From a virus: a DNA stretch of 27,907 nucleotides. Under the pieces are notes generated by a model. The model had not been told where the DNA came from. It searched no databases and saw only the letters and a program-made list of their open reading frames with translations. Made by a program: the position numbers and the translations under genes. Each line of letters starts with the position of its first letter. Within the stretch, counting starts at the first letter, position 1. Positions 3,101 through 24,191 of this stretch are shown one piece after another. Location: IMG/VR virus record IMGVR_UViG_3300027608_002709, positions 1 to 27,907 of that record; one strand, 5' to 3'.

Positions 3101-6100
3101 ACCATTACACCAAGTACCAGTTTTGTATTGACATCCGGTGCATTCAATTACAATGGTGGTACACTGAGTGCTGTTCCAACATTTACACACACAGCCGGTA
3201 CCGTGACACTAGGACAAGCCTACGCATTGACAGCAACCGGTACATATACATTAACCACCGGAACATTGTCACTTGGTACTTACAATCTAACCACTGGTAT
3301 ATTTTCATCCACGGGAACGGGCACAAGAGCCATTGAATTTGGCACAGGTAATATTATTTTGGCCCACACAACTGCGGCTACTGCTGTACTCGCCATGGCA
3401 ACGGCCACCGGTTTTACCCGCACAGGTACAGGTGGATTCTCTTCAGCAATGACAGTGACCCGAACATTTCAGTTTGGTGCCACTGGTGGTAGCACCGCCA
3501 ATGCAGTAAATCTTTCACTGACTTCTGGTTCAAGTATTCCAACTTTCTCCACCAGCAGTTATTTCAATACATTAGATTTTACCGGCAGTGCAACAACCCC
3601 AGCAACCACAACAATATTTGTAAACTCATTAACATTAAGCACAGGTGGTACATACACCAGTTTAATTGTGACCTTTGGTGGCACAGGAACATGTACCAGT
3701 ACTGGTAAATCACTAAGCGGATTAATAATTAATAGTACTTCAGGAACAACTACCTTGGCTGATGCAGCCGCCACTACTGCTACTGGTACAACAACACTAA
3801 CTTCTGGCACACTGGCACTGGGTGGTTTTGATTTGACTACTGGTATATTTTCATCCAGCAACTCAACCACAAGGGCAATTGCATTTGGCACAGGTAATAT
3901 CATATTAAATAATTCGAGTGCGTCTGTCATGGGACTCGACATGGCAACTGCTACAGGGTTTACTTATACAGGTACAGGTGGATTCTCTTCAGCTATGACA
4001 GTGGCCAGATCATTTCAATTTGGTAGTACCACTGGTGGTAGTACTGCTAATGCAGTAAACCTTTCACTGACATCAGGCTCGAGTATCCCAACTATCACAA
4101 CAGCTTCGTGGTTCAACGCATTAAATTTTACTGGTAGCACATGTACACCAACTGCCACATCAATATTTGTAAACACTCTGACACTGGCCACAGGCGGCAC
4201 ATACACAGCGTTGATACCAACACTTACTGCGACACAAACATGGACTCCGCAATTTAGCAAACAACTTGGAGGATTCAGTATCCAAGGCACCGGAATAACT
4301 GTGACCATGGGTGGATCACAATCATTGGTGGCAGATGCAACAACAACACTGACTTCTGGCACACTGGATCTTGGTGGATATGATTTGACCACTGGTATAT
4401 TTTCATCCTCGAACAGCAACACAAGAGCAATTGTATTTGGTACCAATAACATCATATTATCACATTCAGTTGCGGCTACCACGATACTGTCAATGTCAAC
4501 TTCCACTAATTTTACATACACAGGTACAGGTGGATTCTCTTCACCAATGACAGTGGCCGCGACATTTGCATTTGGTTCAGCTACTATGACCAATGCACCA
4601 AATTTAGCATTAACTTCTGGCTCAGCTGTTCCTACTATCACAACAGGTAGCTGTTTCAACGCATTAAATTTTACTGGTAGTACATGTACACCAGTCGCTA
4701 ACCCTGTATACGTAAATAGTTTGACATTAGCCACAGGTGGTACTTATACTTCTCTAATACCGTACTTTACTGCGACACAAACATGGACTCCACAATTCAG
4801 CAAACAACTTGGCGGATTTGGTATCCAAGGCACCGGAATAACTGTGACCATGGGTGGATCACAATCATTGGTAGCCACAGCCACAACAACATTAACATCT
4901 GGCACACTGGATCTTGGTGGTTATGATTTGACCACTGGTATATTTTCATCCGCGACCTCAAGCACCAGATCAATTGCATTTGGTACCAATAACATCATAT
5001 TGGCCCATACATCTGCGTCTCAAACTGTACTGTCAATGGCAACGGCCACCGGTTTTACATACACAGGTACAGGTGGGTTCTCTTCAGCAATGACAGTGAC
5101 CAGAACATTTAGTTTTGGTAATAGCAGTGGTGGTAGTACCACTAATGCACCAAATCTTTCAATAACTTCTGGTTCAATCAACTCCACTATCACAACAGGT
5201 AGTTATTTTGGAACATTGAGTTTTACGGGTAGTTCATGTACAGTATTAACCACAGCATTGAACCTAAATGGATTGACATTGGCCACAGGTGGCTCATACA
5301 CTGGAATAACTGTGACTTTTGTTGGCACAGGTACATATACCAGTACCGGTAAAACAATTGCGGCATTGACCATCAATCATTCAGGTACAACCACCTTGGC
5401 CGATGCTGGCAGTTGTACCACCTGGACTCAAACCACAGGTACAGTTAACTTTGCCACATACAATTTGACCTGTTCTGGTGCTGTGAGTTATACCGCAGGT
5501 ACATTAAGCAACATGGGCACCGTCACATGTACCAGTTGGACGATTGCGGCCGCTTCGACATTTACCATGACCAGTGGCACAATTACACCAAGTACCAGTT
5601 TTGTATTGACATCAGGTGCATTCAATTACGATGCTGGTACACTAAATGCTCCGTTGTTCACACACACCGCTGGTACAGTAACACTGGGACAAGCATTGAC
5701 AACAACCGGTACATATACAATGACTGCCGGAACATTGTCACTTGGTAGTTCTACTTTGACCTGTGACGCATTTAGTTCTGCTAATAACAACGTAAGAACA
5801 ATTGCATTTGGTACTGGTAATATCACAGTGACTGGGTCTGGAACCGTTTGGACCACAACAACTGTCACCAACTTGACAATAACTGGCTCTAGAACTGTCA
5901 ACGTGACCAACGCAACTGCAACTGCAACAACAGTGATACCGGGAAGTTTGACAGAAGCACAGGCTATTGATTTTAATTTCACAGCAGGCACCTATGAGTT
6001 GACTTTCCTGAATGGCCTAAATCACAACGCACGAACTGTAAATTTCACCGGATACTCTGGGTCCTGGCTGCATGGCGGTACTTGTATTCTTTACGGATCT

Positions 6101-21015: not shown

Positions 21016-21420
21016 ATGGCAGTAATAGATACATTTGCACAATTAAAAAATAATCCTAGTAATCTAGGAACTATCAATTTAAATAATATATCTGGTGACG
21101 GCAGTAAGTTCTTTAACAATTATTTTGATAAAACTATTACAATTAGCTCAGCCAAAGATGATGCAGTACTCACTTACTTTGAAAAAATTTGTGAAAACAA
21201 AGAAAGTGCGTTGGCACTTAGTAGTGCAGTGATATATACAGCTCGAGTTCAAAATGTTGATGTCATGGCAGTATTGGATGAGTTTAAAAAGTTAAGTAGA
21301 GAACAACTTGGTCCGTATATAAGCTACTTTTTAAATCTCAGTAGGATTGGCACCAGCCTGATAGGTGTGCAAAACAGTACAAATAAAAACAAATATGTAG
21401 CTCGAACAATTATAGCATGA
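21016..21420 (+). CDS. Phage protein of unknown function between tube-like and gp4-like genes
   Basis: This 134-residue soluble protein has an N-terminal polar segment (about 1-40) followed by helices: DDAVLTYFEKICENKESALALSSAVIY and VMAVLDEFKKLSREQLGPY. The last 25 residues (SLIGVQNSTNKNKYVARTII) resemble the C-termini of small virion-associated proteins in marine T4-like phages as I recall them, but I cannot name a family. It starts nine bases after the previous stop, with AAGGA (21005-21009) as ribosome site, and its stop overlaps the gp4-like ATG (ATGA). The context implies a late virion or assembly role. Confidence 0.65.
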   Translation: MAVIDTFAQLKNNPSNLGTINLNNISGDGSKFFNNYFDKTITISSAKDDAVLTYFEKICENKESALALSSAVIYTARVQNVDVMAVLDEFKKLSREQLGPYISYFLNLSRIGTSLIGVQNSTNKNKYVARTIIA

Positions 21421-21851
21421 GTAAGTACGCACAGGGAAAATATCAATTACAGAATCCGGCTAAGTATGTGGGTAACAAGACGCCAACTTACCGGTCGGGG
21501 TGGGAGTGGACTTTTATGCAGTTCTGTGATGTTAATCCAAATATACTTCAATGGGCTAGCGAAGCCATACATGTTAACTATCGTAATCCGTTGACAGGCA
21601 AAAATACAATTTATGTACCAGATTTTTTAATTGTTTACAACGATGCTCAAGGCCGACAACATGCCGAGGTGATTGAAGTTAAACCAAAAAAAGAAACCAC
21701 GCTAGAAGGTAACACCAATGCTAGATCACAGGCCGCCGCAATACTCAATATGGCTAAATGGGAAGCTGCCAGAGCCTGGTGCAAGAATCAAGGCTTGTCC
21801 TTTCGTGTGATAACAGAAGATCAAATTTTTCATCAAGGCAAGAAGAGATAA
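21417..21851 (+). CDS. 4: Head completion nuclease (T4 gp4-like, TnsA-type fold)
   Basis: This 144-residue protein has the restriction-like endonuclease signature: E30 in SGWEWTFMQF, D69 in IYVPDFLIVY, and E87-x-K89 in AEVIEVKPKK. These are the usual metal-binding and catalytic positions of TnsA-type nucleases and of T4 gp4 (also called gp50/4). In T4 the protein is needed to complete filled heads so that tails can join, and it is thought to trim DNA at the neck. The length fits (T4 gp4 has 150 residues). The start overlaps the previous stop (ATGA). The TAA stop lies within the late promoter of the following accessory gene. Confidence 0.88.
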   Translation: MSKYAQGKYQLQNPAKYVGNKTPTYRSGWEWTFMQFCDVNPNILQWASEAIHVNYRNPLTGKNTIYVPDFLIVYNDAQGRQHAEVIEVKPKKETTLEGNTNARSQAAAILNMAKWEAARAWCKNQGLSFRVITEDQIFHQGKKR

Positions 21852-21857
21852 TAAATA
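21850..21857 (+). promoter_or_regulatory. T4-type late promoter AATAAATA for the TctC-like gene
   Basis: AATAAATA at 21850-21857 overlaps the gp4-like stop codon. Predicted +1 is 21863. The 47-base leader holds a GAGGAAA ribosome site (21901-21907) before the ATG at 21910 and two short inverted repeats (AGTA/TACT; GTCC/GGAC). Confidence 0.65.
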
Positions 21858-21909
21858 CTGTTAGTATCGACTACTAGTCCCATGAACGGACACAATTACT
21901 GAGGAAATT

Positions 21910-22818
21910 ATGAAAAAGCTATTAGCTACACTAGCCATAGCCTTGTCTTTTGCGGCAACGGCTCAAGAAAATGTAACCATTTATTACGCATTTAGTCCTG
22001 CTGACAGTATTGCCAATTATGGCCGTACCCTGGTACAGGAAGCAAATCGTATTCAAACCAAATACAATTTTATGTTTGACACCAAACCCGGAGCAGGCAA
22101 TGCCATTGCGGCAAACTTTGTAAAGACAAATCCCAACACTATCTTGTTTACCAGTAGTGCATTCTTTATTCGTCCAGAGTTTTACCCAAACGAAAGTTAT
22201 GAGGTACGAGACTTTCGTGAGTTTATGCCATTTTGTACCAGCCCAGTGGCAATCAGTTCAGTCAAGTACAAGTCTTGGGACGAAGTACCCAAAGATCGAC
22301 CCCTGAACATCGGTGTCAGTGGACTTGGCGTTACTACACACTTGATCAGTTTACAGATTGTTGACAAATATCCAAATGCACAAGCAGTGCCTTTCAAAAG
22401 CACTTCAGAAGCCTTCATGGGTTTGATCAGTGGATCACTGGATTTTAGTCTTGGGTTTCTAACAGATCATCACGCCTGGGCCAGCGACCCAGCTAGAAAA
22501 GTACAGACATATGTACTGGGCATCACAGGTGCCAAACCCATGTTGGGATACAAACCCATAGCCGGAATGGGTTTCAATCCAGTTACTAAATTGTTAAACA
22601 TTCCACATCATATGGTAGTGCCAGTCACAACACCAGATGCCAAGTTTAAAGAATGGAGAGCTATACTAACACAAGCAGTACAGGCCAAAACTGTGTTGGA
22701 CAGTTACAAAGCAGACATGTGTGAGCCACTGGTACTAAAAGACAACGAACTAGACTCTTGGTACACCGAGCAACATCAAAAGTGGAAAAAGTTAACCACA
22801 GGCATTAAACTTAACTAA
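21910..22818 (+). CDS. Exported TctC/Bug-family solute-binding protein
   Basis: This 302-residue protein starts with a Sec signal peptide: MKKLL, a hydrophobic core to residue 15, and an A-T-A cleavage site after residue 18. The mature part follows the Bug/TctC order of motifs: VTIYYAFSPAD (22-32), KPGAGNAIAANFV (59-71), RDFREFMPFCTSPVAISS (100-117), GVSGLGVTTHLISLQI (135-150), AVPFKSTSEAFMGLISGSLD (159-178). Bug proteins bind small carboxylates or other metabolites in the periplasm, usually for tripartite tricarboxylate transporters or signalling. No transporter membrane subunits are present here. It has its own late promoter, strong ribosome site and terminator, and lies in a virion gene cluster, so it is probably an accessory (moron) gene acquired from a bacterium. 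Ligand unknown. Confidence 0.82.
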   Translation: MKKLLATLAIALSFAATAQENVTIYYAFSPADSIANYGRTLVQEANRIQTKYNFMFDTKPGAGNAIAANFVKTNPNTILFTSSAFFIRPEFYPNESYEVRDFREFMPFCTSPVAISSVKYKSWDEVPKDRPLNIGVSGLGVTTHLISLQIVDKYPNAQAVPFKSTSEAFMGLISGSLDFSLGFLTDHHAWASDPARKVQTYVLGITGAKPMLGYKPIAGMGFNPVTKLLNIPHHMVVPVTTPDAKFKEWRAILTQAVQAKTVLDSYKADMCEPLVLKDNELDSWYTEQHQKWKKLTTGIKLN

Positions 22819-22819
22819 C

Positions 22820-22842
22820 AAAAGGACCGCAAGGTCCTTTTT
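22820..22842 (+). terminator. Rho-independent terminator after the TctC-like gene
   Basis: AAAGGACC (22821-22828) and GGTCCTTT (22833-22840) pair perfectly around a GCAA tetraloop, followed by T residues to 22842. It is only a few bases from the stop codon at 22818. Confidence 0.85.
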
Positions 22843-22846
22843 CAAT

Positions 22847-22854
22847 GTTAAATA
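22847..22854 (+). promoter_or_regulatory. Late-promoter-like GTTAAATA, leaderless position
   Basis: GTTAAATA at 22847-22854 predicts +1 at 22859-22860, at the ATG (22859). No ribosome-binding site can fit. Confidence 0.5.
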
Positions 22855-22858
22855 CTCT

Positions 22859-23668
22859 ATGCCCTATCCTGATCGACAAGAGATACTCAACAAATTATAT
22901 TTGCGTAAACGAGATAGTATCTTGTTGGGCAACTTAGCTATCAAGCAGTTAGAGTTCATCGAAAGAAATGCACATAAAACTGCATATTTAACTTTAAGTC
23001 GGGTGTCCGACCCTGATGTAGTAGTAATATACACATACGGCGGAGTAACTCCCCATCACTTTTACTTTACTAATACTGGGGAAATATCCGATAAGACAGT
23101 AAAGCACCATCAATTTACATGGGAATGGATAAATCACTGGTTAGACCAAGGGGTTGCTGTCGTTATATTCGATGTACCTGATTATTTCATGTCTTACGAA
23201 AATCCATGGGTAAGTAGTTTCTACAGGACCAGCGAAGATCGATTAGCTGAAAGTTTCCAACTTATTGATCTAGTAGCACAGAAATTGCCTGGCGCATCTA
23301 TCAACTGGTTTGGTATTAGTTATGGAGCACAAGATGCGGCCAATATTAGTCTACACACATCCAAGTTACGAAAAATAGTATCTGCATCTGGCACTTGGCA
23401 TGTGCTTAAAAATATTGATGAATTCCGTCAAGGTGCTAGATTAGATTGGTACAATGTTGCTGATTCAACATGTCCTGTGCTTATAGTCATGCACGAGAAA
23501 GAAGTGTTTCGAAAAGCACAAGAAGAAATGCTCAAGACAGATTCTATCTTAGTGGCTAATTTTGTACCTGCAAGTGAAGGACATTTTTTTGCCAAGAAAG
23601 AATCAGAGGTTGTGACAGCAATCTGCGACTGGTACAGAGACAAACCTATACCAAAAATAATACAATAA
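22859..23668 (+). CDS. Alpha/beta hydrolase-fold protein
   Basis: This 269-residue protein has the serine-hydrolase nucleophile elbow G152-I-S154-Y-G156 (INWFGISYGA), an oxyanion-loop candidate YTYGG (58-62) after the VVVIYTYGG strand, and a catalytic His candidate H242 in EGHFF. The acid is probably E213 or E215 in VMHEKEVF, where Asp is more usual. It has no signal peptide, so it should act in the cytoplasm. Possible activities are esterase, lipase-like or peptidase. The gene lies between the TctC-like gene and the small terminase gene; its start is placed directly after a late-promoter motif. With its neighbour it forms an accessory pair that is not part of the usual T4 morphogenesis set. 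The substrate cannot be inferred. Confidence 0.78.
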   Translation: MPYPDRQEILNKLYLRKRDSILLGNLAIKQLEFIERNAHKTAYLTLSRVSDPDVVVIYTYGGVTPHHFYFTNTGEISDKTVKHHQFTWEWINHWLDQGVAVVIFDVPDYFMSYENPWVSSFYRTSEDRLAESFQLIDLVAQKLPGASINWFGISYGAQDAANISLHTSKLRKIVSASGTWHVLKNIDEFRQGARLDWYNVADSTCPVLIVMHEKEVFRKAQEEMLKTDSILVANFVPASEGHFFAKKESEVVTAICDWYRDKPIPKIIQ

Positions 23669-23671
23669 ATA
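23664..23671 (+). promoter_or_regulatory. T4-type late promoter AATAAATA, leaderless position
   Basis: AATAAATA at 23664-23671 spans the hydrolase stop codon and predicts +1 at about 23676-23677, the ATG of the small terminase gene. There is no ribosome-binding site. Confidence 0.6.
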
Positions 23672-23675
23672 CCAT

Positions 23676-24191
23676 ATGACTAAACGACTTGAAGAAACAT
23701 TTAACTTACCATCAGCAACAACAGATGAAGCTGGTGGTACAACCACAGAAGATATTAGAACAGTAATTGCACAAAACAGAGACATGATAACTGATGTTGA
23801 TGCGGCTATAGATAAGATTGATGCGGCCCTGCCCTATGTTAGAGATTTAGATACCGCGGACAGCGAACTAGATGAACTGGCCCTGTTGGCCAAAAGCAAA
23901 GCAGAGGACCTAATAGATTTGGGTATGAATGTTGATCCACGATTTGCAGGTGTTATATTGCAAACAGCGGGCCAGTTACTGGGCCATAGTATCACCGCCA
24001 AGACAGCCAAAATGGACAAAAAACTCAAGATGATACAGTTGCAATTAAACAAGGCCAAACTGGATCATCAAATAGCCAAGGACAACAGTCGAGAAGAAGA
24101 CGAACCTGTGGATGGCCGGGGCATGGTACTGGACCGCAATGCGCTACTAGATCAGATTCTGGGCAAAAATCGCACAGAAGAAAAGAAGTAA
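23676..24191 (+). CDS. 16: Terminase small subunit (T4 gp16-like)
   Basis: This 171-residue protein has length and layout close to T4 gp16 (164 residues): a variable N-terminus, a central coiled helical hairpin (about 60-140: SELDELALLAKSKAEDLIDL, then FAGVILQTAGQLLGHSITA and MDKKLKMIQLQLNKAKLDHQ) and a polar C-terminal segment with a short hydrophobic helix (RNALLDQILG). In T4 this helix pair oligomerises into rings that present DNA to the large terminase gp17. The large subunit is not in this window. Adjacent genes are head-related, consistent with packaging. The motif match is by pattern rather than long identity, so some doubt remains. Confidence 0.7.
   Translation: MTKRLEETFNLPSATTDEAGGTTTEDIRTVIAQNRDMITDVDAAIDKIDAALPYVRDLDTADSELDELALLAKSKAEDLIDLGMNVDPRFAGVILQTAGQLLGHSITAKTAKMDKKLKMIQLQLNKAKLDHQIAKDNSREEDEPVDGRGMVLDRNALLDQILGKNRTEEKK

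Follow-up and report, generated by a model that had tools for sequence, protein, structure and literature searches.

Identification of a TctC/Bug-type gene on a phage genome fragment

The window analyzed here is the whole stretch of 27,907 nt of the uncultured virus record IMGVR_UViG_3300027608_002709 (positions 1 to 27,907); all of its features described below are located on the plus strand. An open reading frame at 21910..22818 starts with ATG and encodes a protein of 302 amino acids with a TctC/Bug-type solute-binding fold. The Pfam family TctC (PF03401) was matched just above threshold, with 28.4 bits at a cut-off of 27. This marginal score was settled by a profile built from 13 phage TctC relatives, which matched TphC (E = 1.4e-12) and BugD (3.9e-8) in the PDB, and by an AF2 model (pLDDT 83, pTM 0.81). 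The model showed a two-lobed type II fold, and its 17 best PDB matches were all of the TctC/Bug type, with TM scores of 0.83 to the ligand-bound terephthalate-binding protein TBP (8HKA) and 0.80 to BugD. The assignment as a TctC/Bug-type binding protein made in a preliminary description of this DNA was thus confirmed by profile search and structure comparison, neither of which pointed to a different fold. The Sec signal peptide named there was also found; it is predicted at 21910..21963 (MKKLLATLAIALSFAATA), and a Sec-type signal peptide was recognized by eye, from composition and hydrophobicity, in all 43 TctC family representatives. Comparison of the window TctC with its siblings yielded dN/dS values of 0.05-0.2, indicating purifying selection and, hence, a maintained gene.

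The window TctC showed no match in PHROG and none in 50,697 phage records. A known isolate phage gene was therefore rejected as its identity, and no isolate phage carrying TctC was found. The tail sheath encoded in the window is nearest to those of jumbo myophages such as PA5oct and Atu_ph07 and is 53-54% identical to the sheath in four records of 220-374 kb. The window, about 28 kb long, therefore probably represents only part of a phage genome of some 350 kb.

Insertion site and neighboring genes

As described before, the TctC gene is located among virion genes; these encode tail tube and sheath proteins and a gp4-like head-closure protein. The gp4-like protein (21417..21851; phrog_218 head closure, 1.8e-41; PF08722) has a TnsA-like endonuclease fold and forms the upstream flank of the insertion. 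The TctC gene is followed by a gene encoding an alpha/beta hydrolase (22859..23668) with a GISYG nucleophile elbow and without a signal peptide; the hydrolase scored 16.9 bits against PF00561, which is below the cut-off, and had no PHROG match. The downstream flank is formed by a phrog_16202 gene (23676..24191), which adjoins gp4 directly in most relatives, the gap between the two being 11-21 bp in most of 79 relatives. Because gp4 and the next gene abut in this way, the TctC and hydrolase genes constitute a moron insertion: they lie between genes that are adjacent in relatives and are accompanied by their own predicted promoter and terminator.

Together, the TctC and hydrolase genes form a 1.8-kb insert in seven sibling records, and in the eighth sibling (L095) the slot holds the TctC gene, a DctP-like gene, and the hydrolase gene. 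All relatives of the hydrolase found among these close relatives (7/7, plus the one in L095) adjoin TctC in the slot, and in the sibling records the hydrolase gene is always located 3' of TctC. In other phages, the slot contains a PP-loop gene, a radical SAM/SPASM gene, a gene for an aspartyl-hydroxylase-like oxygenase, a D-Ala-D-Ala carboxypeptidase-like gene, or homing-endonuclease-like genes. The gp4/phrog_16202 slot is a moron hot spot for such cargo.

Transcription and translation signals

A T4-type late promoter, AATAAATACTGTT, is predicted at 21850..21862; its sequence and position place it near the T4 late promoter consensus, which is TATAAATA-like. The element AATAAATAC occurred four times in the window as compared to 0.6 expected occurrences. 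Within 165 kb comprising the window and its siblings, where loci overlap and sites are not independent, all 28 of 28 [AT]ATAAATA sites were located 4-54 nt upstream of the start of an ORF on the same strand.

The TctC leader contains a small stem, GTCC-CATGAAC-GGAC (21877..21891), with arms kept in eight siblings and a varying spacer; the motif matched once in the window with 0.01 matches expected. A riboswitch in this leader was rejected, as the window showed no Rfam match. A ribosome-binding site, GAGGAA (21901..21906), reads GAGGAA or AAGGAAA in the siblings. An intrinsic terminator, GGACC-GCAA-GGTCC-TTTTT, is located at 22824..22842, and its stem is conserved in 8/8 siblings. It is because of this terminator that the unit defined in the preliminary description stops at 22842, beyond the end of the ORF. 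The late promoter, ribosome site, and terminator claimed for this unit were all recovered at the sequence level. The designation "self-contained" holds with respect to these transcription signals; it does not hold for the gene content, since the hydrolase gene always follows in the siblings and, in relatives, TctC is part of a cassette that also includes DctP-like and PP-loop genes.

Further late-promoter-like elements were observed just before the hydrolase ATG (TTAAATACT, 22848..22856), where the element is conserved in eight siblings, and, by motif scan, in front of the downstream flank gene (23664..23672). Both are located just 2-4 nt upstream of the ATG (22848-22859 and 23664-23676), which suggests leaderless transcripts or another role for the motif.

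Phylogeny and ligand-binding loops

Relatives of the window TctC were found on 77 viral loci. A tree was calculated from 43 representatives together with 18 cellular and 21 other phage TctC proteins; its reading is limited by rooting and long branches. All 43 representatives, including the window TctC, were placed on one side of a branch with a support of 99/96. A second phage group of 10 adjoins this clade, and canonical phage TctC copies were placed among the cellular ones. Members of the clade scored 196-602 bits against the family profile, with 360-600 bits for most of them; in the limited samples of cellular genomes compared, cellular proteins reached at most 65 bits (59.6 bits being the best in 369 genomes of one class), and the best cellular relatives found were about 25% identical to the phage clade. 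The window TctC thus belongs to a deep, phage-only clade. A recent derivation from a host Bug gene was accordingly rejected; no close relative was detected in cellular genome contigs (searched with strict patterns), plasmids, or the 369 genomes of one class. The phylogeny that had been proposed as a means to name the donor therefore does not name one.

The motif PFxAGGxxD in the beta1-alpha1 loop is near-ubiquitous in TctC/Bug proteins, with exceptions noted (PMC5812351). When the window TctC was aligned with cellular TctC and with canonical phage copies, the first ligand "pincer" loop was located at residues 25-39 (YYAFSPADSIANYGR; 21982..22026). Here, the motif reads AFSPADSIA in the window TctC; only F is kept, and P, both G residues, and D are replaced. 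D32 and N36 in this loop are typical for the clade, and the PGAG and SGxGxxxHL loops are retained. Since the motif is largely lost, we place the window TctC in a divergent branch within the fold family and do not class it as a canonical Bug receptor. For the same reason, the ligand could be something other than a carboxylate, and the binding chemistry may differ from that of classical Bug proteins; the earlier proposal that a Bug-type receptor points to organic acids can therefore not simply be assumed.

Genes associated with TctC in related phages

A DctP-type protein, matching with 184 bits in one case, is encoded within three genes of TctC in 45/76 loci, and a PP-loop (SGGxDS) gene of about 395 codons, designated c1, in 38/76. 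Eight records larger than 150 kb, selected because they carry TctC and in part closely related to each other, were analyzed for distances: TctC was found at most 2 kb from DctP in 9 of 19 cases (0.6 at random) and at most 2 kb from a PP-loop gene in 11 of 21 (1.1 at random). A signal peptide was absent from all 21 of 21 DctP-type proteins, and DctM was found in none of 19 records searched. A protein of this kind cannot feed a TRAP permease, and a role of the cassette partner as a TRAP receptor was rejected. In eight loci (L019, L041, L053, L062, L064, L065, L066, and L070), the DctP-like gene is split at the lobe boundary into two adjacent halves (about 160 + 162 amino acids).

The c1 family is phage-specific and occurs on 42 loci (e.g., L083:12717-15034). 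This PP-loop ATPase matched no entry in Pfam, PHROG, or the phage collection, and its model (pLDDT 88) matched known N-type ATP pyrophosphatases only in part. Core matches were obtained to carbapenam synthetase (1.7e-4), LarE, and GMP synthetase, with TM scores of 0.2-0.3. A plain asparagine synthetase or QueC was rejected, no family match being above the cut-off.

In a near-identical sister record, which extends beyond the sequence covered by the window, two PP-loop genes and then a canonical TctC gene follow at a distance of 21 kb. The window phage therefore very likely also possesses a second, canonical TctC gene behind two PP-loop genes. Two fatty-acid-desaturase-like genes adjoin the second TctC gene of the sister phage (L083:16676-18309). 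A gene for a benzoate-CoA-ligase-like adenylating enzyme is located directly 3' of a TctC relative on another locus (L009:7946-9388).

Genes for TctA, DctM, and DctP were searched for in the window and none was found, in agreement with the previous statement that the TctC gene is not accompanied by transporter subunits. Furthermore, the siblings lacked DctM, and TctAB was absent from the window, its siblings, and the four lineage members of 220-374 kb, so that a permease would have to come from the host in this phage. A 158-kb record (G005) encodes a TctB (41 bits) overlapping with a TctA (458 bits) at L189:9148-11063. It also carries a member of the window's TctC clade, a second TctC, DctP halves, three PP-loop genes, a clamp-loader gene, and tail-fibre-like genes. 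TctA was found on five further viral contigs with phage-like surroundings, two of which also carry TctC; TctBA and TctC thus occur together in three phage records (G005, G402, and G404), the TctC proteins of G402 and G404 being placed outside the window's clade. TctB-TctA permease pairs were noted on the viral contigs L192, L193, L195, and L196, and L193 additionally encodes a Gram-negative porin (3751-4929; Porin_4, 116 bits). Tryptophan-halogenase-like genes were observed near tail-fibre regions at L086:6831-8450 (Pfam, 379 bits) and L189:7100-8677 (285 bits).

Among the plasmid records searched, a phage-encoded TctA was 73% identical to a Variovorax protein, suggesting Burkholderiales hosts. 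The host of the window phage is probably also a member of this order.

Proposed function

We propose, with an even chance of being correct, that the late-made protein binds a small organic acid or an amino acid, which is then taken up via TctAB of the host or the phage. In this view, the gene is a moron of a T4-like jumbo myophage whose product, a solute-binding protein from a phage-specific TctC/Bug branch, is exported to the periplasm. Produced late, it would capture the solute in the host periplasm and hand it over to a TctAB-type permease, which would be that of the host in the window phage and is phage-encoded in some others. In this way, the cell might continue to import one nutrient even as expression of its own genes collapses, similar to what is presumed for cyanophage PstS with phosphate. 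The imported compound would probably be used by enzymes of the cassette, that is, the PP-loop ATPase, the cytosolic DctP-like binder, oxygenases, and the hydrolase. Nutrient support would be unexpected so late in infection, and late expression had been taken previously as an argument against a simple early metabolic role. This argument is weakened by the finding that phages with TctC relatives, one of them carrying a member of the window's clade, themselves encode the TctB-TctA pump.

The loss of the motif and the cytosolic DctP partner both point to a function more unusual than mere uptake. Tentatively, a viral acquisition and processing pathway can be envisaged in which exported TctC, sometimes phage TctBA, and a cytosolic DctP-like carrier deliver a ligand that the PP-loop ATPase would adenylate and 2OG-oxygenases or a hydrolase would convert into a finished product; we consider this possible and rather doubtful. 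If true, viruses would possess a metabolic system for which no cellular counterpart is known.

Alternatively, TctC may act as a periplasmic decoy or sponge which removes a small molecule (a signal, an inhibitor, or a defence messenger) and does not feed a transporter. Most carriers lack TctAB, the pincer loop is altered with D32 and N36 as new residues, the accompanying DctP-like protein is cytosolic and has no transporter, and the predicted promoter for late expression is well formed. We nevertheless regard a sponge as unlikely, because TctBA is encoded by a phage carrying the window's TctC clade and no small-molecule defence messenger is known to act in the periplasm. A role in the envelope or in superinfection, by which exported TctC would alter the envelope or block later phages, is quite improbable: the late signals, the export, the moron nature, and the D-alanyl-D-alanine carboxypeptidase-like gene found elsewhere in the slot are consistent with it, but the solute-binding fold with conserved ligand-cleft loops is not, and the window TctC has no membrane anchor and no known exclusion domain.

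BctC in Bordetella has a sensor role and presents its ligand to BctE. In a similar way, the phage protein could present a ligand to a host sensor kinase and change host transcription, and orphan Bug proteins without permeases are indeed common in Burkholderiales (PMC5812351); yet a phage in its late phase would gain little from host transcription and no sensor genes are linked to TctC, which makes this very unlikely. Given the location of its gene among virion genes, TctC could be a virion component, for instance attached to head or tail in the neighborhood of gp4, but this is hardly credible: the signal peptide would export the protein from the cytoplasm, where virions are assembled; the gene is missing from most relatives that share these virion genes; and in other phages of the lineage it is located far from virion genes.

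Comparison with known systems

The window protein shares with cellular TctC/Bug proteins (BugD 2F5X, TphC 7NDR, TBP 8HKA) the full-length two-lobed type II fold, the signal peptide, and the PGAG, GxSGxGxxxHL, and VPF/Y-K loops. It differs from them by an identity of about 25%, its phage-only clade, the loss of most of PFxAGGxxD, and the lack of TctAB alongside. Cyanophage PstS is likewise a phage-encoded periplasmic binding protein without permease which is presumed to feed a host transporter; it binds phosphate and is under host PhoBR control (PMC10976474). In contrast, the window TctC has a predicted phage late promoter, belongs to another fold family, and has no traceable close cellular gene; a recent origin from a host gene does not apply to it, with 65 bits as the best cellular score found in the limited samples of cellular genomes compared.

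Phosphate cases make up most of the known phage-borne nutrient receptors. If the proposed function is correct, large phages would govern the supply of carbon or amino acids to heterotrophic cells as these die. The family also provides a viral counterpart to the orphan Bug proteins, which have long been puzzling in Burkholderiales.

A search of openly accessible journal papers retrieved none on phage TctC/Bug proteins. A putative tctA domain was reported on a SUP05 virus contig (PMC4164917), which is alike in that a tripartite tricarboxylate transporter gene is located on a viral contig; there, the domain match concerns the membrane subunit only, and TctC, TctB, and the cassette are absent. The fold family and bare Bug annotations for phages were already known; the complete cassette may go beyond this. 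UniProt holds entries from uncultured Caudovirales phage named "Bordetella uptake protein" or "PBP2_Bug_TTT" (A0A6J5M1T7 and others); these are automatic annotations only, in which we found no description of a slot, cassette, clade, or TctBA partner. They include the best viral structural match of the window TctC, with a TM score of 0.87 and 29% identity.
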